Of a stretch of DNA of 64,000 nt, positions 18,502-62,154 are shown one piece after another. The stretch comes from Stentor roeselii (lineage: Eukaryota > Ciliophora > Heterotrichea > Heterotrichida > Stentoridae). The stretch lies in NCBI GenBank assembly GCA_006503475.1, contig RSEH01000081.1, forward strand, positions 102,592 to 166,591. The letters run 5' to 3'. Position 1 is the first letter of the stretch, and each line of letters opens with the position of its first letter. A program made the translations under genes and the position numbers. The notes beneath the pieces were generated by a model, which made no database searches, was not told the origin of the DNA, and was given only the letters and a program-made list of their open reading frames with translations.

Positions 18502-20559
18502 ATGAATATGTCAGATGTTTTTGATAGTGAAGTTTAAACAGGACTTGAAGGGAATGACTTTCAAGCTTTTTTTGAACAGAGTTCAGGGAAAAGTCTTTTG
18601 AGAGGATGGAATTCTTTGCATTATGCTTGTCAGTTTAGGTTTCTTCCTGGAATTATCTCGATTTTGAATAGGAAAAAACAGGAACTCTTGATGGATGTTG
18701 ATAAGAATGATCGAAGACCTTGTGATTTGCTTCCTTTACCTGAGTTGAACCTCTTTAATCTTTATACTTTTGGAGTAGCTCCTGATTTTCAGCTCGGGTA
18801 TGCGAAGGATAAACAAGGGTTTCCGAAAAAAGTTGATTTTCACTCGCTTAAACACCCTGCAGAGTAAGATTCAAGCAGATCAGTTATTCAATTCGCTTCT
18901 TATAAACTACATTCGCTTTTTGTCACACAGAAACAAGAACTCTGGGCTTTCGGATGTGGGCTGAAAGGAGTTCTGGGCACTGGAAATGAACTCTCATCGA
19001 TCTACCCAACAAGACTCTCATTAAAAAACGTGATTCAAGTGGCAGTCGGAGAAATGCATTCAGTATGCGTAACAAAAAAACAGCTCACAGAAGACAGAAA
19101 CGTATTCATCTGGGGCGACAACTCACTAGGCCAGATCCCAGGAATCAAAGAATCAAGTTGCAAAGAGCCACTATACCTGAAGCACTTCAAAAACATCTAC
19201 GTGTCTAAAATCGTTTCAGGAAAAAACCACATAATTGTCTTCACTGGTGAAAAGATCTACTCCTGGGGAGCCAACCAAGAAAAACAACTTTTCAGCAACT
19301 GTAAAGCAGGAGATATTCTCCTTGTCCAAGCGCGAGACCTGCTGCCTCAAGCATCATCAATCATTGACGTTGAAGCCTACGACAACTCAACTTTAGCTCT
19401 TCTATCAACAGGACAACTTGTAAAATCAGGGACTTTTCATTCTTTATTCCATGTTCCTTCAACGAGTCCAATTGAAAAAATTTGTATTTCAAGTAAATCA
19501 ATTCATGCGCTTTCGAAACTTGGAGTTCTTTTTTCGTTTAACTTTGAAAATTGTGCGAAGAAAAATCATTACAAAATGAAGATGAACCGTGAAAAGGTTT
19601 TTGGAATTTTTTCTGGATTTCATGCGAGTGCTGTTGATGATGAGAGAAATCTTTGGGACTTGGACGAAGGAAAAATTTTTGCAGGGATTTCGTGTGTACA
19701 GGGGGCGAGGGTCAATGAAAAATTTACGGTGGTCTTGGCAGGGGTTGAAAGGGTCCCTTGGCCGGTTAATAATCAGTTGATGACACTTTTTGAAATTGCG
19801 GAAGAAAGGGTTTTAGAGACTCTTGTGAGGATTAGGTAGAATGTCAATACTGCTTGTGAACTTTTACTGTTTAGTGAAGCGCTTAATTGTAAAAAACTCA
19901 AGTTTTGTTGTGAGTATTTTATTGTTAGGAATCTTGTATTGATTATTTAGAGAAGCTTTTTGAATGTTGCGAATTGGGAGTTTTTTAGTGTTGTTGATTT
20001 GAATTTTGCTGATGGACTTCAGAAGCATATATCGATTGGCAGTTTGCCCAGACTTTCATTTATTAAAGATGTGAAAGATTTTGAAGAAAATAAGGAATTT
20101 ATTGTAGCACTTGATTCAAAAGAAAATAAAATTTTGAAGAAAAAAGATGAATTAACTCATGATTCATTCAAAAAACAACAAAAGTCTAGAAAAAAACTTA
20201 AGAAAAAACCAAGAACTTATTCAATTAATGAACAAGAGACTATCCCTATTGCGCCTAACCGTCCAAGAGCAGGAACCGAAACATTTCCAGACTCTCCAAA
20301 ATCTCAAATAATAAAACCTCTCGGTTCATTACCATCTGCGAACCGTTTAAAGCCCTGGGGTTCGCGACTCGAAAAAGTGACAACATTCAACGAGATCCAA
20401 TCCCAAGAGAAGCAAAAGCCATTTTCCATAAGCCGCTGGGAATCCTCATCAAAAGTATCCCTATCAAACTTCCAAGAGATCCAAGAGGTAGAAAAAGAAG
20501 ACAAAGACTTAGAAGAAGCCTTAATTCAAATCGCTCTAATGGAGTCCAAAAGCAGTTAA
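18502..20559 (+). CDS. IBTK-like ankyrin / RCC1-repeat protein, four 15-nt introns
   Basis: Four frame-preserving 15-nt introns (18527-18541, 18864-18878, 19825-19839, 19936-19950) join what look like separate frames into one 665-residue protein. N-terminal ankyrin-type repeats include GWNSLHYACQFRFLPGII and VDKNDRRPCDLL. RCC1 repeats follow (about 130-380), with LWAFGCGLKGVLGTGNE, VAVGEMHSVCVTKK, VFIWGDNSLGQIPG and IYSWGANQEKQL. After them comes a helical post-BTB segment (LLLFSEALNCKKLKFCCEYF), then a disordered C-terminus ending in acidic residues. The order resembles Inhibitor of Bruton tyrosine kinase (ankyrin-RCC1-BTB), a Cullin-3 adaptor. A full BTB fold is not obvious, so ligase function is uncertain. 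ATG at 18502 is 8 bp after the preceding stop. Confidence 0.85.
18527..18541 (+). other. 15-nt intron 1 (IBTK-like gene)
   Basis: GTGAAGTTTAAACAG, with A at position 10, phase 1. It contains the TAA that would otherwise stop the frame after 11 codons. Confidence 0.85.
18864..18878 (+). other. 15-nt intron 2 (IBTK-like gene)
   Basis: GTAAGATTCAAGCAG, with A at position 10, phase 2. Removal links the ankyrin part to the RCC1 repeats. Confidence 0.92.
19825..19839 (+). other. 15-nt intron 3 (IBTK-like gene)
   Basis: GTGAGGATTAGGTAG, with A at position 10, phase 0, ending in an in-frame TAG. Removal exposes a BTB-associated helical segment. Confidence 0.88.
19936..19950 (+). other. 15-nt intron 4 (IBTK-like gene)
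   Basis: GTATTGATTATTTAG, with A at position 10, phase 0, ending in an in-frame TAG. It defines a short exon of 96 nt with intron 3. Confidence 0.88.
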
Positions 20560-30795: not shown

Positions 30796-32277
30796 TCATC
30801 TTAATTTATTTAAAAAGAAACTTAGGTCGTGGAATTTTGGACTTTTTTTAAAGGAACTGTTCATCGTGTTTAAACGGTAGTCGAAACTGGAGTTTATTTG
30901 TTTTGAAGAGTTGTTACGGACGGTTATTACTTTTTGGGTTTTTAGACGGGATGGTCTGGTCGAGGTTCTGGAACTGCTTTTGCTTTTTACGCTTTTGTTT
31001 GAGGTTTTACCTGTACTGACATACCTTCTCCCTCTAATATTCTTGAAATTCGGAGAGTTTTCCTTGATATGCGAGTTGGACTTAATAATAAACCCATGAT
31101 GAACAGTCTGTTTCTTCAAGTCATTAGAAGACGACCCTCCAGTGCCCTCTACTTTTTTTTCAACATACTTGCGATGTCTAAGCGGTTTGATATTAAGCGA
31201 GAGTAAAGGAGCAAAAGGTAACAAAGGAGGTCTAGGAACACTTTTTTCACTCGGAACCTGAACAACCCCTTCATGCGCATGATGTTTTTTCAGCAATAAA
31301 TAATAAGTAGTAGTAACATGATTATGCTTATTAGCTTCAATGCACTTCTGCCCATGATCCTGATCAATATTATACATTTCAAGTTTCTGTAAAATCTCTT
31401 TATTAATAGGAATCGCCGAATACCCAACTAAAATTCCTTCACTGGCCATGGGCTTCACCTGGTTAAACCAAGGATGTTGCCTAATCTGCGAAATAGTAAA
31501 TCTAGTCTCAGGGTTAGTATCAAGTATCTTACTCAAAAACTCTTTCGTCAAATGACTGACCCAACTGGGGACCTCATATTCACATCCAAGGATTTTTTTA
31601 TATAAATCCGCAGTATTCGGGTCTTCAAAGGGCAGGTACCCGCTGACCATAGCAAATAAAATAACGCCAGAGCTCCACAAGTCCACTCGAGAACCGGAGT
31701 ACTTGTGACCTGCAATCATCTCAGGAGCCGCGTAACAAGGACTGCCGCAGGCAGTCTGAAGAAGCTCGCCTTGCTTGTAAGTGTTGGAAAGGCCGAAGTC
31801 GACTATTTTGATGTTCTTGTTGCAGTCTAGAAGTAAGTTTTCAGGTTTTAAGTCACGGTGGACTACTCCGAGCTTGTGAATGTATTCGACTCCTGATATT
31901 ATTTGTTGGTAAAACTTGCAGGCTTCAGGCTCGTTTAGGCGCGTGTTTGATACGATAAAGTCGAAAAGTTCGCCGCCACTGGCGTATTCCATGATTAGGA
32001 ATAAGTGTCTTGGGGTTTCTATTATCTGATTAAGGGTTACCTCGTAAAGTTGGATGATGTTTGGATGTCGGATTAACTTTAAGATGTGAATTTCACGAGC
32101 TACTCTTTCGACATCTGCGACGTCTTTAATGCGATCTTTTTCTAGGATCTTGACAGCAACTTTTTCATTGGTCAAGGTATGAAATCCTAGTTTTACTTTT
32201 CCAAATGTGCCCTGCCCAATAGTTTTTCCAATATTATAATGCCCAACAGTCTTGACCTTGAGTTCTCTATTCTCCAT
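30796..32277 (-). CDS. SNF1/AMPK alpha-like protein kinase
   Basis: 493 residues from the ATG at 32275-32277. The frame extends upstream, but that part overlaps the preceding gene's end and precedes the conserved domain. Kinase domain (about 12-270): IGQGTFGKVKLG, VAVKILEKDRI, EIHILKLIRHPNIIQLYEV, HRDLKPENLLLD, DFGLSNTY, activation segment TACGSPCYAAPEM, LPFEDPN. These are near-canonical SNF1/AMPK alpha features. A UBA-like helical region follows (EILQKLEMYNIDQDHGQKCI). The C-terminus is basic and disordered, without a clear adenylate-sensing regulatory domain. Energy-sensing is therefore an inference from the kinase domain only. Confidence 0.93.
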   Translation of the reverse strand: MENRELKVKTVGHYNIGKTIGQGTFGKVKLGFHTLTNEKVAVKILEKDRIKDVADVERVAREIHILKLIRHPNIIQLYEVTLNQIIETPRHLFLIMEYASGGELFDFIVSNTRLNEPEACKFYQQIISGVEYIHKLGVVHRDLKPENLLLDCNKNIKIVDFGLSNTYKQGELLQTACGSPCYAAPEMIAGHKYSGSRVDLWSSGVILFAMVSGYLPFEDPNTADLYKKILGCEYEVPSWVSHLTKEFLSKILDTNPETRFTISQIRQHPWFNQVKPMASEGILVGYSAIPINKEILQKLEMYNIDQDHGQKCIEANKHNHVTTTYYLLLKKHHAHEGVVQVPSEKSVPRPPLLPFAPLLSLNIKPLRHRKYVEKKVEGTGGSSSNDLKKQTVHHGFIIKSNSHIKENSPNFKNIRGRRYVSTGKTSNKSVKSKSSSRTSTRPSRLKTQKVITVRNNSSKQINSSFDYRLNTMNSSFKKSPKFHDLSFFLNKLR

Positions 32278-32311
32278 GAAAAGTTTATTTAAATTCAAGA
32301 AAGTTAATTTT

Positions 32312-33661
32312 TCAAAGCCGTTTAAGAGGCATGTATTCATATTTATCAGGTTCTTCATAGACATACTCGCCATACAACTCATTTGAAAGCAAGGCGAAGT
32401 TATTCACAATATTATCGACACTCGCATCGCTGCTCTCTTCGCTCAAAGGAGGTTCGGGTTCGGTCTTCTCGAACCTTCCAAGAGAAACATGCGCTTTTCC
32501 CTGAAGTGTTTCTTCACTTTGTGTATTTTCTTTCTTTTTACTTGTGCTGTTTAAAAGTCGCTCTGAACGAATCACCCAAGGCAAGACTTTCATTCCAACG
32601 TGATTTTTTTTTATTGGGTTTTTTAAGGTCTTGCTTTGACCACTTCTGACGTCTTTGGCTGAGCGACTTCTTAATGATGTTTTGCGTTGAGAGTTTTTCA
32701 CGAAGTGCTTGTTGTACTCTTTGACTAAACCGTTTAATAGAGGAGATGTGCCGGGTAAAAAGGTTTTAGCGATTATTAGAGATCGCTTTAAATAGGCTTT
32801 GGCCTTTAAGGGCTCTTGGGATAGTTTTGATAGTTCTCGAAAAACTAGGTAAAATGCTGATATTGCCATGCATATCTTGTCGAACATGAAGTCTTTGCTC
32901 AGCTCTACCTTGATGTTGTGGCCCGCTTTCAGCTCTTCAATCAGCAGGACCTTCACCTCAAATATCTGCTCAAAGTTCAAATCTGCCACCCAACTAGTCT
33001 CTTTTTTTCCAGATAAAAAACCCTTAAACTGCAAGTCTTCCGAATTTTTTTTAATTTTTTTTCCATTCATCTGAAGATAAAGCCAATGAAGCACTTGATG
33101 TGCTTCGGAAAAACTTTCCAAAGTTGAACGCTTGTTCGTTAGAAGAGGATTACTTTGTTTTAGATTCTTTTTAAGCTTTTGGTCGTTGCAGTAGTTCAAA
33201 CATAATTTTATCGACTCGAATGACGCTTTTAGAGACTTTTGCGCGGAGCTGAGCGATGTGCTGTGGTTTTGAAGCTTGTGGCAGGTGTCTGAGTGCTGAA
33301 GGTAGAGAAGGCAGAGATATCGCGTTTTTCGAATTGTTTCTGACTTTTTTAAAGACTTTTGAGACTTGCTTGGCTTTGACTTTATGTTGTAGATGCAGGC
33401 TTCTAGGTATGAACTGCAGTCTAGAAGAAGGTTCAGTGACTGGCTGCATAAAGCTAAGTTATGCAGAGTTGCTAAGATCAAGTCACTATCAATGTTGTGA
33501 CCTTGGCTTATAAGAGATTCAAGGTTTTTTTCGCATTTTTTTAGTAGTTCGAAAGACTTAGAATAACGCTTCCCTTGAATTTCGAGGATGGACCTGTCGA
33601 ATAAATCAAGAAGAACAGATTCTTGACAAACTTTTTGAGATAGTTTTTTGGGTTTTTCCAT
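32312..33661 (-). CDS. Hypothetical helical-repeat (TPR-like) protein, 449 residues
   Basis: Residues about 15-340 are alpha-helical with TPR-like pairs (for example FELLKKCEKNLESLI, ILATLHNLALCSQSL, SLSSAQKSLKASFESIKLCL), suggesting a protein-binding solenoid. Residues 350-449 are disordered and end in acidic plus aromatic residues (YGEYVYEEPDKYEYMPL). Family not recognised. Its stop lies 34 bp before the ATG of the SNF1-like kinase on the same strand. ATG at 33659-33661. Confidence 0.8.
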   Translation of the reverse strand: MEKPKKLSQKVCQESVLLDLFDRSILEIQGKRYSKSFELLKKCEKNLESLISQGHNIDSDLILATLHNLALCSQSLNLLLDCSSYLEACIYNIKSKPSKSQKSLKKSETIRKTRYLCLLYLQHSDTCHKLQNHSTSLSSAQKSLKASFESIKLCLNYCNDQKLKKNLKQSNPLLTNKRSTLESFSEAHQVLHWLYLQMNGKKIKKNSEDLQFKGFLSGKKETSWVADLNFEQIFEVKVLLIEELKAGHNIKVELSKDFMFDKICMAISAFYLVFRELSKLSQEPLKAKAYLKRSLIIAKTFLPGTSPLLNGLVKEYNKHFVKNSQRKTSLRSRSAKDVRSGQSKTLKNPIKKNHVGMKVLPWVIRSERLLNSTSKKKENTQSEETLQGKAHVSLGRFEKTEPEPPLSEESSDASVDNIVNNFALLSNELYGEYVYEEPDKYEYMPLKRL

Positions 33662-34014: not shown

Positions 34015-35412
34015 TCATCTCTTCTGTAAATTAATAAACATTTTCTGAATATCAGACTTGTTCATTCCTTTAGTCTCCACCATATCAAATGCAAAATAAC
34101 CCGCTCCAACGACATTAACCCCAGCGAAAATTGCGAAAGTCCAGCTCAATCCAAGTGCACCTACCATAAAAGGAAAAAAAAGAATAACAAGAAAAGCTGA
34201 AAACCAATTCACAGCAGAACAAATACTCATTCCCCTGCTACTCAAGACTTCTCCAGAGTAAATCCAGCAAATAGGTCCAATAGACAATCCAAAGCAAAGC
34301 ACATAAACCTGAATAACAAGAAAAGGAAACACATAAAACACTTGAAAAGCACTGAAAGCACTCATTACACCCAAACAAAGACCCATAATAATCGTTCCTC
34401 CTATCAAAGTCTTCTTTCTTCCCACCCCGTCAATTAACCTCATCAAACAAAAAGTTGCAGAAAAGTTAACAAAACCATTCGCCAATGTAAAAACTCTTGA
34501 AATAAACACGCCACTTCCAAAACTCCCGAATAAACTAGTCGCATATGATAAAATCGCGTTAATCCCTGAAAACTGCTGAACAAGACTAAGGAAAAGACCG
34601 AGTCTCATTGATTTCCTGGTGCCTTTAGCACATTTTATCAAATCACAATAAGAAAAATCAGGATTTTCTTGATTTTCTTGATTTTTTTCAGATTTTTCAA
34701 GATCTTCAAACATTTCGATATCTTGTACCGGGAAAAAAAATTGAAAAGTTTCTTTTGCTTCATTTTTTCTGTTTTTTTCCAGCAGCCAAGGAACAGTTTC
34801 AAATTTAAAAACAAGTAAAAACAAGACAAGTTGCATAAAACCAACAAGTGCTTGAAAGGCGAACATAAACATCCAAAGATTATTTTTCGGGTCTTCTGAG
34901 TACTCAGAAGTCGGGAGCATCAATGCGAAAGCATAAGCTGTTATAAGTCCAAAACAACAAAAAGGTTGAATCAAACTTCCAAGTCTTCCTGAAATCTTCG
35001 CAGGAGCGATTTCATTCACATATAAAGGACACAAAACTGAAAACTTCCCGATTGAAATACCAGAAAGAAATCGTCCAAGGGCAAAGGTAAAGGTTTCTGG
35101 AATTATTGTAATGAAACCTGCGAAAATTGATATCAGGTCAGCAAGCATAAGATTTTTCCGACGGCCTATAAATTTTGAGAGGTACCCGGAAAGTAATGCA
35201 CCGAATAAGGCTCCTAGTGGAAGAAGGGATGAGGTGATTGCTATTAACGTCTCGGAATTCTTACCCCAGTGCAAGGATGAGGACACTGATGGCTGACATG
35301 ATGTGAAAACTCCGATGTTGTAGCTCAAAAGAAATGAACCGAGGAAGGCGTTCATTGCGGAAAACCAAAGTCTTGAATTAAAAGGTTTAATTTTTTGGTT
35401 GTTGATTTTCAT
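34015..35412 (-). CDS. Sugar-porter family major facilitator (SLC2/GLUT-like)
   Basis: 465 residues with about 12 hydrophobic segments. Family motifs: GALLSGYLSKFIGRRKNLML (loop 2-3, G…GRR), FALGRFLSGISIG (TM4), VNEIAPAKISGRLGSL (replacing PESPR-like region), QQFSGINAILSYA (TM7, the QQxSGxN motif), RLIDGVGRKKTL (loop 8-9), GPICWIYSGEVLSSRG (TM10) and VETKGM at the C-terminus (PETKG position). Sugar transport across a cell membrane is likely; substrate and coupling cannot be told. A central loop insertion with repeated Glu-Asn (KSEKNQENQENPDF) is local. ATG at 35410-35412. Confidence 0.93.
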   Translation of the reverse strand: MKINNQKIKPFNSRLWFSAMNAFLGSFLLSYNIGVFTSCQPSVSSSLHWGKNSETLIAITSSLLPLGALFGALLSGYLSKFIGRRKNLMLADLISIFAGFITIIPETFTFALGRFLSGISIGKFSVLCPLYVNEIAPAKISGRLGSLIQPFCCFGLITAYAFALMLPTSEYSEDPKNNLWMFMFAFQALVGFMQLVLFLLVFKFETVPWLLEKNRKNEAKETFQFFFPVQDIEMFEDLEKSEKNQENQENPDFSYCDLIKCAKGTRKSMRLGLFLSLVQQFSGINAILSYATSLFGSFGSGVFISRVFTLANGFVNFSATFCLMRLIDGVGRKKTLIGGTIIMGLCLGVMSAFSAFQVFYVFPFLVIQVYVLCFGLSIGPICWIYSGEVLSSRGMSICSAVNWFSAFLVILFFPFMVGALGLSWTFAIFAGVNVVGAGYFAFDMVETKGMNKSDIQKMFINLQKR

Positions 35413-41536: not shown

Positions 41537-44500
41537 ATGGTTCGAATGGTTCAATTTTTACTATTGGCCGGACTGATACAGTCGGTCTATAGCGCAGCGA
41601 CCATAAGTCTCTCATCGCCGACAGTGGCTTATTTCACGATAACTGCTACAGTGACTATCGGTGGATCAGATTGCAGTTCAGGGACTTTAGATCTGACAAG
41701 TTCAGGAGGGACTATTTATGAAATTTCCTCACTGAGTCAATCAGTTTCTTCAACTACGAGTTTTACTTTCACTTTTTATTATAAAGCAGCAGCGAGTGGA
41801 TCAGTGATAGTGACTTGCAGTGATTTTACTTCAATTACAGCTTCTCAGTCGATCACTGTAACTGAAGGGACTCTTACTTTTTCGGGTTCTGATACTTATG
41901 TAAGAAATAATTAGCCTTCGTCAAGCTCGGATTCTTTTAGTGTTAATTTAAAACTTCTTGAGTCGGGAGGATCACAAGCTGACCTTTCATCTACTGATAG
42001 TGTCACTTTGTCACTTAGTCCTGGAGGAAAGATTAGTGGGACTATTAGTGGGACGCTTAGTTCTGGGGCAATTACGTTTTCAGGTCTTAAGGTTTTGACG
42101 AAAGGAACTTTTTATTTAGTGGCTTCTGCAAATGGCATGAAAACAGGTGTATCTTCTTCAAGTTTCACTGTCACAAACTCACTTGTAAGCATCAAAGTTA
42201 CTCCATCTGTATACACCGTAGCTGCTTCTTCAACTTTCGATGTTAAAGTCGATTTGATTGGAGATGATGGAAACTTTTATGAGCCCTCTACTTCAATTTC
42301 CTTGACTGAAGACTCAGGAACTTCAATCAGTGGTGCAAGTTCGACTTCAGTCACTAAAACTTACACGTTTTCAAGCTTACAGTTCTCATCGAATGGTGTC
42401 AAAGTGATTAAAGCTACAGATGGAAGTGTGACAGGATACAGTTCGGTGACTGTGACATCTGGAAATTCAGTCACCTTGACATATACTGGAGATCTTATAA
42501 TAAATCATCAAATCACGGTCAGATCAATGTATTATGATAATTCTCTTAACTTGATCACATCTTCAGCTTCTGGTACTTTATCGGGGAACATCGCGGGAAC
42601 GACTACTGGATCTTCAAGTACAGGAATAATTTCATATACAATGTACTTCACTGCAAGTGGGTCGCAAACTTTGTCGGTTCTTCATGGCACAGCCTCCACT
42701 TCGATCACTCTAACTATAGATAAAAATACAGCAGTTATCACTCCAGCTAAAGTCTGGGCTCAGGAGCCTGACACTTTAACCTACACTGTTTATTTGAAGT
42801 ACTCAACAGCAATATCCGAAGTGATTTCGATTACAAACTCTGATTCAAACCAGTTCACTTTAAGTGTGAGTTCACTCAGCTTCACATCAGCGAATACTGC
42901 CCAGACTGTGACTGTGACTGTAAAAGAAACGACTTTAGTAGGATCGACAACTAAGACCATCTCTCACTCGAGTTCAAATGTTGACTTCACTTCCCCAGCA
43001 ACGGCAATATCTTCAGGAGTCTTCACAGTGACAATCTACGATGCCACAGACACATACGTAGTAATGTCCTCAACTCCAACCTTAAAAGAAGGAGGTTCAA
43101 CAAGCACAACATTTTACCTATCAAAAGCTCCATCATCAGACGTGACATTAACCTTCAGCACTCACTCTTCCCTCACACTTTCCACCACAACCCTAACCTT
43201 CACATCCTCCGACTACGGCACAGCTCAATCAATGACAGTGACATCATCAGTGAGTAGTGTGAACGAGGCAGGTTCAAACGTATACTCCTTAACATTTTCA
43301 TCATCATCTTCAGACAAGTCCTGGACCAGTCCATCAAGTCTTCCAAGTTCCTTTAAAATTTACGTCATAAAATTAAGCAACCCTCAAGTGTTAATCTCAG
43401 AATCAGTAGTTTTTCAAGAAAGTCAAGGAGGTTCATATTCAATTGTTTTAACATCTGAGCCGACATCATCAGTGACAGTGACTTTGAGTTCTACAGGAAG
43501 TACTATCAAGTTTTCTCCAAGTGTTCTTACGTTTGACTCAACGAATTATGATGTTCCTCAAAGTGTTTCTTTGTATTCTGTTCAAAGTTCAACTCCGAGG
43601 TATTTGAAGTACTCGATCACGATTTCTCATTCGGTTAGTTCGAGTGATGCTAATTATAATTCGATCACTCCGGTACCGTCTTCGAGTATTAAAGTCACTG
43701 CTGTTCATCCTTGCAAGGCTGGACTTTATGCTTGGCCTCCTGGGTCTGGTACTTGTGAACTTTGTCCTTTGGGGTATGAGTGTCCTACACTTTATGAAGA
43801 AAAAACTGCTTGTACTACTGGGTATTATTCTCCTTTAGGGGTTTGGAATTGCTTGCCTTGTCCTCCTGACCATAGTTGTTCAGGCAGTACAATGCCAAAG
43901 CCATGTGCCGACGGTTACACATCAGCAGAAGGTGTCGGAGTATGTTCATCCTGCTCCGGAGTTCCATGCGATAAAGCAGGAGGAAGTATCTCATCAGCCC
44001 CTGCAGGATTTTATCTAATGAACAAAGGCCACAGTATGTACATCTGCCCACCAGGTTATTCCTGCTCAGGAGGATCATCCCTTCCATCCGCATGTTCATC
44101 AGGTTATTACGCTCCATTAGGTTCATCATCCTGCACTCAATGTCCCAAAGGTTTTTACTGTCCAGACCCAGCGACTCCAATTCCAATTCCTTGCGACCCA
44201 TATTCCTATTCATCAGCAGGTGCTCTTTACTGCAACTACTGTCCAGTGGGTTATTCTTGCACAGGGAGTGGATCAACAGCCTGCACATCATCTCAATATT
44301 CCTTAGAAGGTTGGATGGAATGTGTAACAATCGACATCATGACTTATGGAGGTGGAACTACTGGATGTGGACTTGGTTATTATTATCTTGCTTCAACTTC
44401 CACTTGCACTATATGCCCAGTTGGTTACCAATGCGACGGAATGTTTCGAAAAGCTTGTCCCCCAGGTTGGTACGCATCAAGTACTGGAAGCTCTGCATGT

Positions 44501-47500
44501 ACTCAATGCAGTTTAGGTTACTACGCAGTTTCAGTCGAAGGCACTTCATGCACTCAAGTGACTACCGCGGGAAAGTACTCTAATTTAGTTAACAACGGGG
44601 CCAAGACCTGTCATCGAGGACTTACAAGTGTCTCGCCTTTCATTTCTTGCACGTCTTGCACTGCAGGGTACCAATGTGATGATCCTGCAACACCCACGAC
44701 TTGCGCTGCTGGAAGTGTCTGCTTTCCAATCGGCGTCACTCAGAATTCAGGTTCAAATCAACAGCCGTGTCCGAGTGGGTATTACTACGGGTCTACTGGA
44801 GGAGATGAATTTTCTGATTGTATTGCTTGCACTGCTGGGTATTATTGTCCGAAAAAAACTTCTAGTCCTGTCGCATGTCCTAAAGGACATTATTGTCCAG
44901 CTTATTCTTATGTTCCTGATAATTTCCCGTGCCCTGTTGGATATAAGGAAAACTCTGGAACTCAAGATCAAGTTTCGGATTGTGTTGCTTGTACTGCAGG
45001 GTATTATTGTTATCAAGGAGCTTCTGTTGAGTTGCAGTGTCCTAGAGGGTATTATTGTGAAGCTAATTCTTATTATCCGAAATGGTGCAGTCCGGGTTAT
45101 ACCTCACCTGCGAATAGCGATGATTCTTCAGATTGCACTATTTGTGCTGCTGGGTCTTTTTGTCCACCTGGTTCATTCAAGATGCCTTGCCCACCTGGTA
45201 CCTTCAACACGAATACAGGAGGAGGATTTATGTGGGATGCGTGTAGTACTTGCACAGCAGGATATTCTTGCACAAATTACGGTCAAACAGTTGGAACTAC
45301 TAATGCATGTAGCGCCGGGCATTACTGTCCAGCAGGAACTGAACACGCTGAGCAGTTCCCTTGTCCTGCTGGCACATTTTCTGATGCAACTAATGCGGTC
45401 TCAGTCTCTGGTTGTGGGTCATGTACTCAAGGGTATTATTGCCAACTTGGATCAACTACTGGTGATATAATCAAATGTCCCCGAGGTCATTATTGCCCAA
45501 CTTCCACAGCTTTTTCTCATAATAATCCTTGTGATGCTGGAAGTTATTCATGGTCAACTGGCAATACAGATAGTTCTAATTGTGCAGCATGCACTGCGGG
45601 ACGTTATTGCGCCCGAGGAGCTGCATATATCTCAGGATATTGCTCGCCTGGATATGTCTGTCCTACTTCTTCTATTACACCTGATCTAGAAACAAACGCT
45701 TGTGCTGCAGGAAAGTTCATGGCTTACTACAATGCAACTGCTTCATCGGAATGCCAAGACTGCCCTCCAGGCTTCTTTTGTGTTAAAGGTTCTGGCCATC
45801 CAGTACCTTGTCCTCCTGGTTATTATTCCTCGAGTTCCGGCTCTAGTTCTTGCACACAATGCTCAGCAAACAAATATTGCCCTGCAGGAAGTAGTTCTGA
45901 AACAGTGTGTGCAGATGGTTACTATTCTTTAGCTGGAAGCTATGTATGTGAAAAATGTCCTGGTGGATATTATTGTGCCAGCGGCAGCAAAACCAGTTGT
46001 AGTGCAGGAACTTACTGTCCAGAAGGTAGTTCATCAGAAACTGTATGTCCAGCAGGTTACTACTGCGCAGCCACTTCAAGTGAGGCAACACCATGCGCTG
46101 CAGGAAAAATCCAAGGATCAACAGGAAAATCATTATCTTCAGATTGTACGAATGTTGCAGCAGGCTCTTACAGTATTCTCGGCTCTGCCTCAGCTACAGG
46201 GAAGTGTGAGCCAGGCTATTATTGTGATGCAGGATCAGCTGGCCCATACAACACTCCTTGTCCTGCTGGGAAGTATGTACATGATTATGGAGCAACATCA
46301 TCTTCAAGCTGCCTGGATTGTCCTGCTGGGTATTATTGTAAACTTGGAACAGCTGACCCTGTTATCTGTCCAGTAGGTTACTATTGTGCATCCGGAGTAT
46401 CTCTTCCGACGTTTTGCCCAGCTGGTAAGATCGGCCTTAGTGAAGGGCTTAAAGCAAGTACTGATTGTAGTAGCTGCCCACAAGGTTCATATTGTACACA
46501 ACCTGGACTTTTAGTAGCTGATGGAACCTGCGCTCCTGGGTTCGTTTGTGCAGCTGGAAGCACTTTAAGTTCTGGAGGAGGCTCTACCTGTCAAGCTGGA
46601 GGATACTGCCAGCCTGGTTTTATCACTCAACGTAAATGCCCACCTGGAACTTACAATCCAAATCAAGGGGCTAAAGATGTTACTGGATGTGGAGACTGCG
46701 AAGCTGGATATTATTGCTACGGTGATGAAACTGTTGCTAATCAAAACGAATGCACTGCTGGGTACTACTGTCCAATCGGTTCATACTGGTCCAAAATGAA
46801 GATTTCCTATCCAGGCTACTATTCAGAGGCAGCTCAAAGTGAACCAACAGTTTGTCCAATAGGAACCTACAATCGACTATACGCCCAAAGTGCCTGCACA
46901 ACCTGCAGAGAAGGTTTCTACTGTCCTTCAAAACAAATGATTGAGCCAACAATATGCCCAGTAGGTTACTATTGCGTTGCTGGAGTTGATATCTACTCGT
47001 CATGTCCTGCTGGAACTTTCAACCCTCGATTAGGACTGACAACTCAAGATGATTGCAACTATTGCACTCCAGGAAAATATTGTTTAAAGGCTGGGTTAAG
47101 TGCTGTGACTGGACAATGTGATCCTGGATATTACTGCACTTTTGGAGGCAAGTCGAAAAAACCGGATACTTATGATGATACTGATGGAAATTATGGACAA
47201 TGTCCTACTGGTCATTATTGTGAACAAGGGTCTCCTTTGCCAGTGGCTTGCCCGTCGGGTACTTATAATCCAGATGAAATTAGCTCTGGCGTTAGTGAAT
47301 GTGTTCCGTGTGATGCGGGGAAATATTGTAAAAATACTGGCCTTGATAGTGTTGAAGGCGATTGTGACCCTGGATACTACTGCTTATCAGGTGATGTTTT
47401 CGGTACAAAAGTTCCAAGACCAACAGAAGGTACTGAAATAAATTACTGTAAAAAAGGTTTTTACTGTCCTTCTGGTTCCTCTGAACCTACCTCAGTCCCT

Positions 47501-50500
47501 GTAGGGCATTACCAAGATGAGCTAAGGAAACATGATTACAAAACCTGTCCAGCAGGTTACTACTGCGTGACTGAAACAGGTTATTTTGAGTCTTTCTTAT
47601 GTCCTGCTGGGTACTACTGTCCCGAAGGAACCGAATCGAAATTTCAGTACCCTTGTCCTCAAGGAACTTACAGTCCTCGAGAAGGACTCAGATCTGAAGG
47701 AGAATGCATTGATTGCCCACCTGGGTACTTTTGTGGAACAACAGGAAAATCTTCAATTGATACTACTAATGATAAATGCTCTGAAGGATATTTCTGTAAA
47801 AAAGGATCGAAATTGCAGGAACCTATTGCGGATTACCCAGGAGATAGTAATGGAGGTAGATGTGTGAAGGGATATTATTGTCCTGCTGGCAGTGCTTATG
47901 CGCTTAAATGTGATGGAGGAAAGTATTGTGGAAGTGATTTAATTCATACTGTTTCAGGTGATTGTGATGCTGGGTATTATTGTATTGGAGGAGCTACTAC
48001 AAAAACTCCTTCAGATGGAACAACTGGAAATAAATGTCCCAAAGGTCATTACTGTCCAGCTGGTAGTCAGTCACCGATTCCATGTCCAAAGGGAACCTAC
48101 AACAGTTTTTTCACTCAGGTAGATTCCAATGCTTGTCTCCCATGCACTGCAAAATATTATTGCGGAAGTGTCGGACTGTCCAAGGTGACAGGCTTATGTG
48201 CAGAAGGCTTTTACTGCTCTGGAGGAAACTACGAACTTATGCCAAAAGATTTTAAATGCACAGCTGGACATTACTGCCCTGAAGGCAGCTCAGCTGAAAG
48301 AAACTGCCCAGTCGGGTATTATCAGGATCGAACACTTCAGAAAGAGTGTAAAGAATGCCCGGAAGGGTATTATTGTAAAACTGAAAAAACTGTTACTCCT
48401 ACTCAGTGTGAAACTGGATACTACTGCCCGAAAGGCTCAACTGATCATCAGCCTTGCCCTGCTGGTACTTTTACGAATGTCCTTGGTAGATGGAAAGTAT
48501 CTCAATGCATGGATTGCCCGCCAGGTAAATATTGCTCAGAAGCCGCCAGCACACCTACAGGTGACTGCTTCGAAGGTTATTACTGTCTTGGAGCTACAAC
48601 AAAAAACAAACCTACTGAAGATGCTGAAGGTGGAATATGTCCAAAAGGTTATTACTGCCCAACTGGAAGTACTTCTGCAATTAAATGCACTCCAGGAAAG
48701 TACTGTGAAACCAAAGGATTGAGTGCTCCAACAGGTGACTGTCTTGAAGGATACTACTGCATGGAAGGAGCTATTTCTAAAAAACCTACTGACAAAATCA
48801 CTGGAGCAATCTGCCCAGCAGGATATTATTGCCCGACAGGTTCCACATATCCAATCCCATGCGAAATCGGTAAATACCAGCCTTCCCAAGGTAAATCCGA
48901 TTCATCCCACTGCCTAACTTGCCAAGCAGGTTACTACTGTGCAAGAAAAGCAGCGAAAACATTTTCAGGAGTTTGTGGAGGAGGCTACTTCTGCCCATCA
49001 GGCAGCACAATCCAAAAGAACCCTTCCAACAAATGTCCTCAAGGAACTTACTGCGAAGCAGGGTCATCAACTTCAAAAGACTGTCCAGAAGGAACCTTTC
49101 AAAACTTAGAAGCTCAAAGTTCATGTCAAGAGTGTCCAGCAGGTTTTTACTGTGACGTGAAAACAATAACACCTACAATTTGCCCAGTAGGTTACAAGTG
49201 CCCTGCAGGCACTTCAGACAGTTCAAAACAGCCATGTTCTTCAGGGTATTATAACCCCTTCGAAGGCCAAAGTGACTGCTTGCCTTGTCCTAGGGGTTAT
49301 TATTGTCTTTATAACTCAGCAGGCATCACGGACCCTGTAGAGTGCCCTGCTCGAGCTTATTGTCCTGAAGGGACCAAGACCAGCACTAACTACTGCCCGG
49401 CAGGGACTTACACTGAGAAGACTGGACTTCAAAGCAAGGACCAGTGCATGCCTTGTCCTTCTGGGTACTATTGTGATGAGGGAGAAATCAAGGATCAATG
49501 TCTTGCTGGGTATTTTTGTAGGTCTGGATGTAATAAAGAAGACCCTGACTCTTATACTAATACAGGATCTGGATCGCCTTGTCCTGAAGGACATTATTGC
49601 TTGCTTGGAACTATTATTCCTATTCCTTGTCCTGAGGGAAAGTTTAGAAAGGAAAAAGGAGGAAAAACTGTTGATGATTGTAAATATTGTGAAGCAGGGT
49701 ATTATTGTATTCCTAATGATCCTGTACCTAAACCTTGTCCTACTGGAGCTTATTGTCCTGAAGGTTCAAGCACTCCCTTGCTATGCAAAGAAGGATATTA
49801 CTCAACAGCAACCATGGCTTCATCTGAATCAGTCTGTACTATCTGTCCATCTGGTTATATTTGTGACCGTGCAGGTATCGGTAATTACAAAGACTTCCCT
49901 TGTACTCCAGGTTATTATTGCCCGTCCGGAGCTCAGCTGCCAGTGAAAGCACCGGAAAAATATTACTCACCAGGTGCAAGCGCTGGAAGCATACCAGATC
50001 TGAATGTTTGTCCAGAAGGTTTTTACTGTGAAGAAATGTCAACAGGGTATGCAATGTGCAGTATCGGAAACTATTGTAAAACTGGGGTGAGTATTCCTAC
50101 ACCATGCGGTGAAGGGTACTTCTGCGATTATCAATCAAGTGAGCCAACCCCCTGCCCAATCGGTTTTTACTGCCAAGAATACGAATACCCAATGGACGAC
50201 TACCCTCCCCTTCTATGTCCCTTCGGTACAATCTGTCCAGTGACTTCCGTATCATCAACTCCCACAATAGGATCAATCGTTCCAATTTACTGCTCAGCAG
50301 GTAAATACGCAATAATGGCCAAAACCATAAATTCAGATGAATCGACTGAATGTGGAACCTGCCCTCCTGGAATGTACTCATTAACAGGGTGGATCGAATG
50401 TCTTTACTGTGACCCGGGGTACATTTGTCTTGAAGGCGCCAGTGTGCCAAACCCAGACGATCGAGACATTTACAACGGATATAAATGTGGAAAAGGATAT

Positions 50501-53500
50501 TATTGCCCCAGTGGAATCACTGAACCTATTCCTTGTCCCATGGGAACTTTCAGTCTAAATGAAACTCTTGGAAGTTTAAATGATTGTGAAAAATGCCCTG
50601 TAAATACTTATAGTGATAAAGTTGCTTCTATTAATTGTACTGATTGTAGCAGCTCTTCGAGTAGTGTGGAAGGAAGCACTAATTGTAAATGTAAAGGAAA
50701 TAAAAGACTTTATTTGAAAGAGTTTAAGAGATGTGTTTGTCAGGTTGGGTTTGAGTATATTGACTCTAGTGGAAATGATCAGAGTGATAAAGATGGGACT
50801 GATGATTGCTTAGAAATTGTTTATGATAGGTGTGAAGAAGGACAAGTCAGGGATGAACTCGGAGACTGTAGAAGCAAAAATGACTGTGATGATTTTTGTA
50901 ATGGGAAAGGTGCTAGAGATGTTTCTACAGGAACTTGTCAATGTGAAGATGTTACTGACCTTTCTTCTATTTGCGGTGTTGAATGCAGAGACCAATCCAC
51001 GAAATATTCATTAGGACCTGATGGAAGTATTATTGAAACAAAGTCTGACGGAACTTCTACTTCGAAGAAGATTTCAGAAATACCAAATTTTGCAGGGTCA
51101 ATCGATTGTGGTTCCTCATCTTGTCAAATCGTTTCAATGAACTTCGACAATAAATTCAACGGTGAGTATGGCTATTCGAATGTCCTTAAATTTGATGAAA
51201 AATCAAGAAAACTCAAAGATACTAATGAAACAAATTCAGTTGAAAACCCAGTTGTATGTATTAGTGAAGGAGATACAATGGTTTTTTCAGTTACATCTGA
51301 TAATTTCCCTGTCTACCTAAAGGACTCATTATTAAACAGCAACAAAAAATTCGACTATTCAAAATTCACTCAGCTAAAAAATGATATTGAAGACGGAGAA
51401 GTTAGTTACAGTTCTTTCGGATTCACTTTCAAAGAAGCAGGAATTTACATCTTCGCCGACAACAAAGACCGAGACCAACAAATAATAGTCGGAGTGATGC
51501 GTTCAGATCAACAATGTCCATTCGGTTCCGCTTTCATCCAGCCAAGGATGACATCATCTCTTCACCTTCTCGGTGTGAAGCTCGACGACAACATCGTTCT
51601 AACAGTAGACTGGATTGTTGTATACGGAATAATGGGTTTCTTAGTCTTCACCATCCTTGTCTTCACGGGTTTCTTTTACTATTACTCTAAACTAGTCTGG
51701 TCTCAGCCAGGTTTAAAGCACGTCGAATATCGAGACGAAAATCAAATTCTTGATATTAAAGACGACGTCGGTCCTCGAAACACAAAAAAAGTCATCATTG
51801 AAGGAAAAGAAGCGGAAAGTTCAGGATCTGAAGCAGAAGAAATCCAAGACATGCTTAATGAAAAAGTTCCTGAATCGGCGGACTATGAACTTCCTTCTGA
51901 AAAAGAAGAGAAAAATTTAATTGATGCTGCTTTGATGCAGGCTATTAAAGATAAAATCAGGGATAACAATGGAATGTTTAGAAGATTTATGGAAGATAAT
52001 GATGCGGAAACTGCGGATCGTCTTAATCGTTTGGAAGAAGAGGCTGAGGATTTGAAGAATTTGATGGAATCCCTGCTTAATCCGATTAGGCCCATGTATC
52101 ATAAACCGGCTACTGCGGCTAGTGGGGTTAGTGTTGATTATCATCATGACCTGCGAACCGGAGCATCTTCAGAAGTCGACTACCAAGAAGCCCTAAACGA
52201 CATAGCAGTAAACGAAGACCTTCTCGAGCAAGACAAGCAAAAACTAATGAACGAGTTAAACTCAGAGCTAAGCAAACTCGACCACAACCTAAAACTCGAA
52301 AAATCAAAGCACGATTCAGATCTAAGCAAAAAGCTCGCAGACCGTGCTCAAAAACGACGAGAACTCGAGCGTAAAAAGCAAGAGTTAGAATCTGACGAGA
52401 AATTAACTCAAAAGCGTCACCAAAACGAGAAAAAACAAATAAACATCGAATTAGAAAACGCAGAAGTCCAACTCGACAACGAAATCAACGAAGACAAATT
52501 CGACATGGCCCGGCAGCTTCACGGTCAAAAAGCGATCGAGCTTCAAAACAAGCTACGAGAAGGCGTCGCTATAAACCCTGAAAAACAACAGGAGCTCTTC
52601 AGACAATACGAACTAGAAATCCAATCACTTGAAAAGAACCTCACAATGAATCAGATCCGCCAACAACAGGACCTCGCCAGAAGAATCGAAGAAAAGAAAA
52701 GAAACCGAAAAGCAAAAATCGCTGAAGACAAAGCAAAGACTACTGCTGACCTTGAAGCGAAACATAAAGTTGAAGTCTTTAATTTAAATCAGAGAAGACT
52801 TGAAATCGAAGCACAAGAAGTCGTCGCTAGTGTCATGCCTGTACTGGTTGAGAAAAATGATGACTTGGCTTTACGTGAATTGGAAGAAAAACAGAAAAAA
52901 GAAATCGTTGAAGCGGAAAAAGCTTTGAAGGAACAGGAAGAACAGGAAGTTGCGAAAATGATGAGAAATTCTTCGATTACGGAAAGTAAAATTACACAAC
53001 AAAAGGCACAACTTGAAAAACAGAAAAAAGAACTTGTGGCTAGTCTTGACTCGGCAACTGAAGAGGAAAGAGAAGAGCTGATGAATGATTTGAGGAAAAC
53101 TGAACAAAGACTCAAGGAAATTAATGATGAACAAAGTTTGGAACAGAAGAAAAATTTGGATACCAGACTTGATATGAGGAGGAAAAAAAGAGAGGAAAAA
53201 ATCAGGGAAATTAAAGAGAAACAGGAAAAAGAAAGGGAAAAAGCCGAAAAGGATGCAAGGGAAAAAGTTAAAGCTGATAGGGCTGCTAGTCTTGAAGCTG
53301 CTATTAAGGAAGCTATGGGAAGACTACCCGAGGATCAGAAGGCTAAAGCGATTCAGGCTATGCTTGAGGAAAAACATGAAAATGAACAGATTGAACTTAA
53401 TAAAAAACTTAAGAAGAAAGTTAGGAATCGGCAAAAGAGGACCATTCAAGAAGTAATGAACATGAAAATAAAAGACTTAGAACTTCTCCGAAACGAATAC

Positions 53501-54502
53501 AAAGAAAAAATCAAAGCAGCAGGAAGAGACGCTGAGACCACAGCACGTATCCAAAAAGAAGAAAACGAAGCCCTTTCAAAACTAGACTACTTCTACATGA
53601 AAAAACTCGAAAAAATGCAAGAAGATGACTGGAAAGACCAGCAAAAAAAGAACCAAGACGAACTTCTCGCCCTAATCGATTCCCAATTAGCTGAAATGAG
53701 AAAGCACCTTCATAAAAAAGACCCTAACACCCTAGAACTCGAAGCACGTCTAAAAAAAGAAAGAGAAGAAATCGAAAAAGAAGGAAAAGAACGTCTAGAG
53801 TTCCTCGAAAAGCAGAAAAAAGAACTGGAAGAACAAAGAGCATTAAAACAAAGAGAAATCGAAGACATGATCAGGAAAGACAAGGAAAGAGAAGAAAAAG
53901 AAAGAATGAAAAAAGAAATACAAGACAAGAAAAGAGCGATTCTTGAAAGGCAGAGGAAAGAAAAAGAAGAACTTATGAGAAGAGGACTTATGACAAAAGA
54001 ACAGATGGATAAACTCATTGCTGACCATCAAAAAGAATTAAATGCACTTGAAATGGCGATTGCCAGGGAAAGAGATCGACAAATCGGAATCATGAGTCAG
54101 AAAATCGCTGAAAAACAAGCAAGAAAGAGAGAATATGAGTCTAGCATGCAAAGGATGAAGGAAGAACAAGATAGACTTCAGAAGGAGTTAGAAGAATTAC
54201 CTGGAATTACTAATAAACAAGCTACTACTTTACTGTTGAAGTGGAGAAGGTATCCTAAGAAGAATATCAGAGATATTGAAAAGTCGGTGAAGAATAATGA
54301 CCCTGCACAGAAACTTGTACCTATTGTTAATAAACATACTCAGAAACAAGGAAAAAAAGTTGAAAATAAAAGACTTGAAGAACTCATTTGGAGAATTGAA
54401 AAAATTGAAAATACTGTTGATCATGTCAGTGATGAACATGTCAATAATATCTTCAGAAGTATCAAGACTATTGAAGATAGGGTTAGAACCCTTAAAAAAT
54501 AG
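41537..54502 (+). CDS. Giant single-pass surface protein: Ig-like and Cys-rich repeat ectodomain, long coiled-coil tail (4316 residues, one 15-nt intron)
   Basis: Spliced protein of 4316 residues; an intron at 41900-41914 removes an in-frame TAG. A signal peptide (MVRMVQFLLLAGLIQSVYSA) leads into a Ser/Thr-rich beta region, with at least three modules of about 100 residues (nt 42720-43690; for example SSDVTLTFST … LTFTSSDYGTAQS). From about residue 720 to 3100 lies a very long array of Cys-rich units with GYYCPxGS, CPPGTY and CxxCPAGxYC signatures, the GCC2/GCC3-type (ephrin-receptor-like) pattern. A less regular region and a membrane segment (DWIVVYGIMGFLVFTILVFT, about residue 3355) follow. 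The cytosolic tail (about 940 residues) is almost all charged coiled coil. A surface structural or adhesion protein linked to the cortex is likely; ligand and partner are unknown. Confidence 0.93.
41900..41914 (+). other. 15-nt intron (giant gene)
   Basis: GTAAGAAATAATTAG, with A at position 10, phase 0, ending in an in-frame TAG. The frame continues unchanged for over 12 kb downstream. Confidence 0.95.
43710..50950 (+). repeat. Coding array of Cys-rich GCC2/GCC3-type modules
   Basis: Dozens of degenerate units of roughly 35-55 codons encode GYYCPxGS / CPAGTY / CxxCPxGYYC patterns. Nucleotide sequence varies much more than the Cys/Gly/Pro spacing, indicating old duplications kept under protein-level constraint. 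Confidence 0.88.
52150..54490 (+). repeat. Coding region of the charged coiled-coil tail
   Basis: Long heptad-rich Lys/Glu/Arg/Gln sequence (for example REEKIREIKEKQEKEREKAE). The codons are A-rich. Antisense frames read Phe/Ser-rich and are spurious. Confidence 0.8.
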
Positions 54503-60888: not shown

Positions 60889-62154
60889 ATGGAAGACGTG
60901 AAAGATATTCTTGGAAATTCAAGAAATGACTCGAAAAGTAAAAACGAGGTCATAAACCGCGAAATTATCAGCTTGACTGGAGGCATCCCGCCAATAAAGC
61001 CTTCATTTTCCAAGCAAATTCTGAAAGGTTTGAAAGAAAAGCGAAATGACAGCAAATTGACTGAAAAATGGTCCTGGTCTTCTTTCACGAACCCTGCAAG
61101 GCGAGACTGTCTTCTTCTGAGTCACTGGAAGAAAGTGTCAGATACTGAAGAGTACCCGTTCGCGAAATTCAATAAGAGCATTGAGATGATTACTTATACA
61201 GAAGAGGAATATCTGAAAGTTCAACATAATCCTAGTTGGACTAAAGAAGAAACTGACTACTTTTGGGACCTTTGCCAAACTTTTGACTTGAGGTTTATTG
61301 TCATTCAAGACCGGTATGACTTGAAGTACCCTGCTCGGAGTGTTGAGGACTTGAAAGAAAGGTTTTATTCTTTGTGTAAAGATATTCTGTTGTTGAGAAG
61401 TATGAACTCTCATCCTATCATCACACTTCCTTATAATGCAAATTATGAGAAAAAAAGAAAAGCTCTTCTTGAAAAGTACTTTTTAAGGACTCGTGAACAG
61501 GATGAAGAAGAAAAAGCTCTTTGTGAAGAGGCTAGAAAACTAGAAATTCGGATTAAAAAGGAAGAAAAGGAAATGAAAGTCTTTGAAAAACTCATGTCGA
61601 ATAACTCTGAAGAAATTGAATTCACTGAATGGAACCAGAATAAAAAGGAACTTGTGAAAGGACCTAGTCTTAGAAGTACACAACTTTATCAACCTGCCCT
61701 GCCTCAAAGACAACAGAAGAAAATTGAAAGTTTGTTGAAAGATTTGTTGATTCCTGATAGACCCATGCCTACTGCTGAGGTTATTGACCTTTATACCAAG
61801 TTGAGAAAAGAACTTTTCATTCTACTTAATCTTCAGAAACATGTGATTAAAAAGGAAAATGAAAAAAAAACATTAGAAGATCGAATTCGAGAAGCGAAAA
61901 ATAATCAGGTTAAGAAAAGTAACAACTTTGTTAATCAGAGTGTTAAAGTTGCTCAACACCCGACTATGCAGGCGAAAAGTGCTGGACTTAAAATTCAAAA
62001 TGTTCCCTCGAATAAACAAACTATTGGTCCTATGAATAATTTGAATAGTACTTACACAACGCCTAGGAAACCTCCTGTTAAAAATAGAAATGATGGGGCT
62101 GATGATGTTGAACAGGCTACTCCTAGTAAAAGACCGAAGAAGTCTAATCCTTAG
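60889..62154 (+). CDS. DMAP1: DMAP1/Swc4-like subunit of SWR1/NuA4 chromatin complexes
   Basis: 421 residues. The N-terminal KSWSSFTNPARRD-like segment (WSWSSFTNPARRDCLLLSHW) and PFAKFNKSIEMITYTEEEY are DMAP1 signatures. A SANT-type domain follows: WTKEETDYFWDLCQTFDLRF, then VIQDRYDL, RSVEDLKERFYSLCKDIL. Later, EKKRKALLEKYFLRTREQDE and EEARKLEIRIKKEEK form the charged coiled coil, and KIESLLKDLLIPDRPMPTAE matches the C-terminal conserved helix. In other eukaryotes DMAP1/Swc4 serves the NuA4/TIP60 acetyltransferase and SWR1 histone-exchange complexes. Length and domain order are typical. Confidence 0.92.
   Translation: MEDVKDILGNSRNDSKSKNEVINREIISLTGGIPPIKPSFSKQILKGLKEKRNDSKLTEKWSWSSFTNPARRDCLLLSHWKKVSDTEEYPFAKFNKSIEMITYTEEEYLKVQHNPSWTKEETDYFWDLCQTFDLRFIVIQDRYDLKYPARSVEDLKERFYSLCKDILLLRSMNSHPIITLPYNANYEKKRKALLEKYFLRTREQDEEEKALCEEARKLEIRIKKEEKEMKVFEKLMSNNSEEIEFTEWNQNKKELVKGPSLRSTQLYQPALPQRQQKKIESLLKDLLIPDRPMPTAEVIDLYTKLRKELFILLNLQKHVIKKENEKKTLEDRIREAKNNQVKKSNNFVNQSVKVAQHPTMQAKSAGLKIQNVPSNKQTIGPMNNLNSTYTTPRKPPVKNRNDGADDVEQATPSKRPKKSNP

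Follow-up and report, generated by a model that had tools for sequence, protein, structure and literature searches.

The 64,000 nucleotides of Stentor roeselii DNA analysed here (the window; contig RSEH01000081.1 of assembly GCA_006503475.1, positions 102,592 to 166,591) carry a gene for a giant protein of 4,316 residues, which belongs to a family of five collinear full-length genes in the same genome. All five proteins share one order of parts. A hydrophobic start and beta modules lead to some 2,340 residues of cysteine-rich repeats, and a pre-membrane domain, one membrane pass and a charged helical tail of 814-936 residues follow. This order is read most simply as a rod at the cell surface whose tail lies inside the cell. 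The best reading of its role, to which we give roughly an even chance, is a membrane-tethered rod of the cell coat whose tail acts as a cortical anchor. To our knowledge, the cohesion of coat, membrane and cortex in large single cells is poorly known at the protein level, and five proteins each with a predicted outer rod of ~90 nm and a long inner helix are concrete candidates for such a link. The parts are known ones in a new combination, except that the tail and the pre-membrane domain are without clear relatives. Since at least 138 PF07699 matches occur in the genome, the repeat kind is already known and the novelty lies in this arrangement of parts. A sequence-only reading of the same DNA knew of no named protein with this exact layout, and searches of the open-access literature, judged by title and abstract start, likewise brought up no named protein and no ciliate report of it.

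The gene is also a clean case of some 4,300 codons relying on a 15-base intron for the signal peptide. Two open frames were found, 41537-41914 and 42008-54502 (4,164 codons), and excision of GTAAGAAATAATTAG (41900-41914) fuses both into 4,316 codons followed by TAG. The 3' end of this sole intron, positioned after codon 121, is the same in-frame TAG that closes exon 1; consequently, the signal peptide is attached only when the intron is spliced. The translated protein has a hydrophobic start, is serine/threonine-rich to residue ~720 and cysteine-rich from 721, and ends in a lysine/glutamate-rich tail. By hydropathy, it has a single hydrophobic stretch at the N terminus and a single pass further in (residues 3355-3373). 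The coordinates, length, order of parts and single pass proposed earlier are borne out. TGA serves as a stop codon, terminating 6 of 44 open frames of at least 350 codons; this is compatible with a heterotrich, as are the 15-nucleotide introns.

Introns of 15 nucleotides are a trait of heterotrichs. Such introns (GTA...AG) are required near the start of all five family genes, six in total, with two in C58 and one in each of the others; C102, C466a, C466b and C58 each have one after codon 25-32, directly behind the signal peptide. The join test counted, in 231 kb of the genome, the GTA..YAG excisions of 11 to 26 nucleotides that fuse two open stretches, each of 100 codons or more. It returned 6 joins at 15 nucleotides and 0-2 at each other length; a control motif yielded none at 15 and no more than 2 at any other length. 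One of the six is the intron of the window gene, two lie elsewhere in the window, two in the C390 stretch and one in the C196 stretch, so that the five other than the gene's own are all outside the giant family. Plain GTA..TAG motif counts per length did not set 15 nucleotides apart. Because the join test peaks at 15, these introns are taken as real in this genome. The in-frame TAG, the introns of the paralogues and the join test all support the earlier claim that splicing of a single microintron would attach the signal peptide.

Family members were sought throughout the assembly (44.39 Mb, 522 contigs), the queries being the pre-membrane domain, the tail and paralogue versions of each. The five full-length genes are that of the window (C506), C102, the tandem pair C466a/C466b and C58, encoding 4,316, 4,196, 4,128, 4,167 and 4,258 residues, respectively. 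The paralogue search that had been suggested among heterotrichs thus yielded four further genes within this one genome; the C466a tail as sole query did not recover C102. Each paralogue has one internal hydrophobic segment. The start is above the hydropathy cut-off in four of the five, and that of C466a is below it, yet resembles a short signal peptide. All five genes have long uninterrupted open frames (4,103-4,195 codons), and their collinearity supports one gene rather than several and speaks against a chance frame. Pairwise identity among the five ranges from 30 to 59%, and the mean over pairs is 28% in residues 20-300, 33% in 390-720, 41% in 721-3060, 38% in 3060-3345 and 26% in the tail. 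Of 303 cysteine-bearing alignment columns, 225 are invariant in all five, which indicates that the rod is under constraint. For C466a/C466b, the nonsynonymous distance (dN) is 0.36 and synonymous change is saturated (proportion of differing sites, pS, 0.72), no more than a rough sign of purifying selection. A broken sixth fragment with in-frame stops lies at C74:16578-16824, nearest to C58 (identity of 69% over 32 residues and of 55% over 33). The tail of the window protein matched only the five family genes and two overlapping C80 places with many stops, taken for low-complexity sequence.

The membrane-distal part of the ectodomain is presumably formed by beta modules. Residues 122-391 of the window protein are without a Pfam match, and an AlphaFold2 model of residues 300-1000, built from five sequences, places immunoglobulin (Ig)-like beta modules of ~110 residues ahead of the repeats. 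Compared with the sequences of the PDB, the Ig-like modules gave nothing better than E 0.12. Across the five members, residues 300-1000 matched PF07699 in three and NCD3G in two, and single members matched the ELAPOR1 TNFR-like model, LapA (E 2.3e-4), fn3_6, Cep192_D6 and two families of unknown function. Arrays of ~190-residue modules resembling the N terminus of the window protein also occur at C88:47565-61229 and C201:46023-55028, where the open frames reach 1,790 and 2,175 residues, respectively; these are apparently other giant surface genes, and one module of this type (L041) matched no Pfam family above cut-off.

The cysteine cluster spans residues 721 to ~3145, with 246 cysteines in 721-3060, one per 9.5 residues. 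PF07699 (Ephrin_rec_like, GCC2/GCC3), the sole family recognised by Pfam in the exon-2 protein, scores 26.6 bits over five stretches against a curated cut-off of 23.1, and the place C506:151634-151744 is itself above cut-off. A domain search had been proposed for the predicted region of about 2,400 GCC2/GCC3-type residues, and it supported this repeat type. In the genome, PF07699 gave its at least 138 matches with 150 of 319 candidates scored. Of eight loci, six were inspected on one strand, and three of these, L002, L003 and L008, showed frames of 944, 938 and 962 residues in which three hydrophobic segments come after a PF07699 stretch; many PF07699 places of the genome lie in frames of similar size. 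Four longer frames, in C26, C344, C390 and C196 (3,590, 3,159, 2,655 and 2,543 residues), have between four and seven CxxCx5C units and, by hydropathy, from four up to eight hydrophobic segments.

The best solved relative of the repeats is the Chlamydomonas mastigoneme protein Mst1. PF07699 was matched within residues 1260-1960 in four of the five members, and the five-member profile of this region found Mst1 as its best PDB match (E 2.2e-26 summed over five stretches); the best single Mst1 stretch has an independent E value of 8.9e-10. The next-best match was TNFRSF21 (8.8e-6). Mst1 was also the best match of the profile of residues 721-1100 (E 1.6e-10). In the Foldseek search with the model of residues 300-1000, mastigoneme chains take the first three places (E 3e-16 to 3e-15), with template-modelling (TM) scores of only 0.14-0.16 over the query. 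The profile matches indicate a growth-factor-receptor-type cysteine-rich rod in common with Mst1, in the sense of a repeat type and irrespective of orthology. Scaled by residue count from the 26 nm that 678 residues span in Mst1, the repeats would form a rod ~90 nm long.

Between rod and membrane lies a conserved domain. It overlaps the block with the highest mean pair identity (0.53 in residues 3241-3300, 18 invariant columns); within the rod, block 2641-2700 reaches 21 invariant columns, with a mean identity of 0.48. A structure model of residues 2930-3400 has a mean predicted local distance difference test (pLDDT) of 64.6, with block means of 70-86 in the pre-membrane domain, which is modelled with six strands and one helix. 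Among the best 50 of 406 Foldseek rows for this model, none was below E 0.001. The best of them are calcium-sensing receptor, mastigoneme, 4-1BB and ELAPOR1 chains, which presumably arise via the cysteine-rich part. Lower among the same 50 stand plastocyanins at row 32 (TM by target 0.53) and row 41 (0.62), with E 0.04-0.05 and matched residues not specified, followed by pseudoazurin at row 45 and amicyanin at row 48. The ligands of type 1 copper are histidine, cysteine, histidine and methionine. Residues 3232-3318 contain no histidine in the window protein and in C466a, and the only cysteine, common to the five, is in the first strand; a copper-binding cupredoxin is ruled out, the ligands being absent or not conserved. 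With low confidence, the model points to a cupredoxin-like domain without copper. Weak matches to DUF6037 and AAA_14, in one member each, were taken as chance, and the search for relatives of the domain in viral contigs and genomes of prokaryote species gave pattern matches only, none of them confirmed.

The tails contain 39-45% charged residues (aspartate, glutamate, lysine and arginine); the 936 residues of the window tail are 22.5% acidic and 22.0% lysine/arginine. Each tail has 0-3 cysteines and 12-22 prolines (0 and 15 in the window protein). Opposite-charge pairs at i+4 are enriched in all five (z 3.3-5.7), with i+3 equally strong in C466a. The charge spacing and the few cysteines and prolines fit long charged helices, as expected. 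The hydrophobic period is best at 3.55-3.75 (z 4.2-6.9). In the window tail z is 5.5 at 3.65 and 0.4 at the heptad period of 3.5, where C102, C466a, C466b and C58 reach 2.4, 5.8, 3.0 and 1.7, respectively. The heptad period being weak, a plain coiled coil is not supported for the window tail: of the coiled coil that had been proposed, the long, charged and helical character stands and the heptad sense is not shown. This tail is better described as a long charged helix, possibly of hendecad type or a single helix.

A 54-residue element recurs three to five times in the tails, as counted with a profile trained on those same copies. With the scanned protein left out of the profile, the best copy beats 200 of 200 shuffles in all five proteins. 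Some but not all cross-tests among repeat 1, repeat 2 and the C-terminal copy score above shuffles, and R3, the copy in the middle, picks out its C58 counterpart alone, so the repeat claim is of moderate strength. The block common to the five near the C terminus is a candidate docking motif. With E values up to 1 allowed, Pfam contained no match to the window tail, nor did the PDB contain one to the five-member tail profile. The tails of other members gave single weak matches to unrelated families (DUF4304, MetOD1, DASH_Dad1 and a plant-virus coat family), and the description of the protein as receptor-like is not sustained. The same scan of the window tail contained no kinase, on which ground Eph-receptor-like signalling was rejected, and no death domain. 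A suspected likeness to the tail of limbin (EVC2) gained no support from it and is not claimed.

If the parts are taken together, the protein would be a type I surface membrane protein whose signal peptide is cleaved and whose Ig-like modules stand at the distal end. The disulfide-stapled PF07699 repeats would form a stiff rod, followed by a compact beta domain on the membrane, one crossing helix and ~940 residues of charged helix reaching into the cytoplasm. By analogy with the cysteine-rich dimer interface of Mst1, the rods may pack laterally into a coat. Most likely, the tail would bind the cortical cytoskeleton and the protein would thereby tether the coat to the cortex, a role that fits the order of the parts. 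The retention of repeats, pre-membrane domain, one internal pass and tail in all five paralogues counts for a coat rod.

Several observations weigh against this proposal. The window protein's own 1260-1960 stretch is without any Pfam family, and its sequence alone (residues 721-3093) gave nothing at E 0.01 against the PDB. The Mst1 match is confined, repeatedly, to positions 69-240 of the 710-position profile and has a large composition bias (35.1 in the best stretch, which scores 40.7 bits). The model of residues 300-1000 used for Foldseek has a mean pLDDT of just 56.7. Rows 4-18 of that search are chains of the ciliary central apparatus (E 9e-15 to 3e-10), which makes the Ig-like part of the Mst1 likeness generic. 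In the available part of the source, Ig-like domains among Mst1-like proteins occur in two Chlamydomonas species only (PMC11015965), and the Ig-like modules here are therefore probably independent of those in Mst1. N-glycosylation sequons are few for a coat protein (4-7 per ectodomain in the five members). No known cytoskeleton-binding domain was found in the tail, either with the window tail in Pfam or with the five-tail profile in the PDB. The tail is also the least conserved long part, its mean pair identity being 26% where the rod has 41%; a spacer fits this low conservation as well as a specific anchor does.

Other roles may be considered for the same layout. A bolder form, which we think improbable, is a one-chain membrane-spanning mastigoneme: the cysteine-rich part would polymerise sideways into an extracellular filament or palisade, and the tail (up to ~140 nm if fully extended at 0.15 nm per residue) would extend the mechanical line into the cortical cytoskeleton, doing alone the job of Mst1, MST3, SIP and PKD2 in Chlamydomonas. 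A related and similarly doubtful role is that of an appendage of cilia or membranelles, in which a membrane-tethered, mastigoneme-like filament subunit reaches axonemal or basal-body structures with its tail. The repeats and layout are similar to Mst1, and the Chlamydomonas mastigoneme, according to the accessible part of its report, joins PKD2 and SIP in an axoneme-attached complex (PMC10846610), which a built-in pass and tail would reproduce in one chain. On the other hand, the Mst1-type proline-rich region is lacking: the window protein has no run of more than 2 prolines and at most 9 per 40 residues, and at most 2 per 40 from ~3001 to the membrane, where the proline-rich helix after the rod would be placed. 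In addition, PF07699 matches are so abundant in the genome that the likeness to Mst1 may simply mirror which rods have solved structures.

An unlikely explanation of the same rank is a sensor for regulated exocytosis or contact, similar to the cysteine repeat modular proteins (CRMPs) of Tetrahymena and Toxoplasma, whose ectodomain would feel a ligand or contact while the tail relays the signal. In the part of the source available, CRMPs are described as surface proteins of alveolates that contain cysteine-rich repeats and act in exocytosis, and for TgCRMPa the C terminus was shown to be cytosolic (PMC9670195). Divergence among the paralogues here is greatest in the first 300 residues and in the tail, as expected if their ligands differ. 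However, five (Tetrahymena) or nine (Toxoplasma, Plasmodium) passes are predicted for CRMPs in that text and hydropathy gives one here, the Pfam scan of the window tail contained no signalling domain, and the C26, C344, C390 and C196 frames, with a few PF07699-type units and several hydrophobic segments, look nearer to the CRMP layout. Adhesion or self/non-self recognition (in mating, prey capture or substrate attachment) by five diversified versions is also given a small chance. The most divergent ectodomain modules are at the N-terminal, membrane-distal end, the beta modules resemble those of other giant genes, and they have weak matches to LapA (17.7 bits against a cut-off of 27 in the window protein, the E of 2.3e-4 in one of five members) and to fn3_6 (one member). 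Against it, no binding domain besides the PF07699 repeats exceeds a curated cut-off in the window protein, and the comparison covers one genome. An error of reading, with a start within exon 2 and a cytosolic protein or with repeats that are several genes, is very improbable given the near-start introns, the shared exon pattern and uninterrupted frames of all five paralogues, and some 250 regularly spaced cysteines that would fit the secretory route.

Table 1. Positions in the window of the parts of the giant gene and of the other annotated features.
Feature	Position	Strand	Residues	Remarks
Exon 1	41537..41899	+	1-121	Signal-peptide-like hydrophobic start (~residues 1-19), then first beta sequence
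15-nt intron GTAAGAAATAATTAG	41900..41914	+		In-frame stop when retained
Exon 2	41915..54502	+	122-4316	Stop TAG
N-terminal Ser/Thr-rich part, presumably beta modules	41915..42724	+	122-391	Least conserved ectodomain part; similar modules in other giant genes
Three predicted Ig-like beta modules, ~110 residues each	42725..43699	+	392-716	AlphaFold2 strands, Foldseek
Cysteine-rich rod, PF07699/Mst1-type repeats	43712..50731	+	721-3060	246 Cys
Cysteine-containing linker	50732..51241	+	3061-3230	Alignment, model
Conserved pre-membrane domain, tentatively cupredoxin-like without copper ligands	51245..51505	+	3232-3318
Single membrane-spanning helix	51614..51670	+	3355-3373	Hydropathy, model helix
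Charged helical tail, predicted cytoplasmic	51692..54499	+	3381-4316
Tail repeat 1, L..RL..R...R element	52250..52411	+	3567-3620
Tail repeat 2	52601..52762	+	3684-3737
Tail repeat near C terminus	54020..54181	+	4157-4210
C-terminal block common to five	54365..54451	+	~4272-4300	Alignment
Further candidate 15-nt intron joining long open stretches	18864-18878	+		Join test
Further candidate 15-nt intron joining long open stretches	13235-13249	-		Join test
Copine	5524-7320	-		Pfam
WD40 protein with Utp13 domain	7359-9539	-		Pfam
Open frame, 1,054 aa	20572-23736	-		No Pfam match at E 0.001
Protein kinase	30796-32382	-		Pfam
Sugar transporter	34015-35412	-		Pfam
Open frame, 1,099 aa	55145-58444	-		No Pfam match at E 0.001
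DMAP1-like protein	60889-62154	+		Pfam

The ciliate immobilisation (surface) antigens are large coat proteins with periodic cysteines that are anchored by glycosylphosphatidylinositol, whereas the window protein has an internal pass and ends in a charged tail. ELAPOR1, Eph receptors and TNFRSF21 contain short stretches of the same cysteine-rich repeat type, and no layout in common with them was found. The CRMPs and the Babesia GCC2/GCC3 domain proteins are, as far as the available texts describe them, likewise large alveolate surface proteins with cysteine-rich modules. The four Babesia proteins (2,678-3,719 aa) have PF07699 and TNFR-like matches, with one PF07699 stretch each. The predicted passes in these texts are five or nine for CRMPs and eight to ten for the Babesia proteins, in contrast to one here, and a long helical tail such as that of the window protein is not mentioned in them. 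Because of its one pass instead of five to nine, the window protein falls outside the definition of CRMPs, and membership was rejected.

The closest comparison is with Mst1 (PDB 8tx1, 8wa2, 9b4h), the best solved relative of the repeats by profile and the top Foldseek match for residues 300-1000. According to the portion of the report available, Mst1 has nine Ig-like domains, a 26-nm cysteine-rich domain (residues 1,176-1,853) that dimerises in antiparallel fashion, and a poly-proline helix (PMC11015965). Both proteins combine a signal peptide with a long cysteine-rich rod of PF07699 type, and the Ig-like domains ahead of the rod in Mst1 have a possible counterpart in the low-confidence model of the window protein. 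In the same portion, the 678-residue cysteine-rich domain of Mst1 is accompanied by the proline-rich helix, with no mention of a pass or cytoplasmic tail. The rod of the window protein, on the other hand, is ~3.5 times longer, and a membrane-proximal domain, a pass and a tail of 936 residues come after it. As the nearest solved rod, Mst1 offers a structural template for the packing of the outer part.

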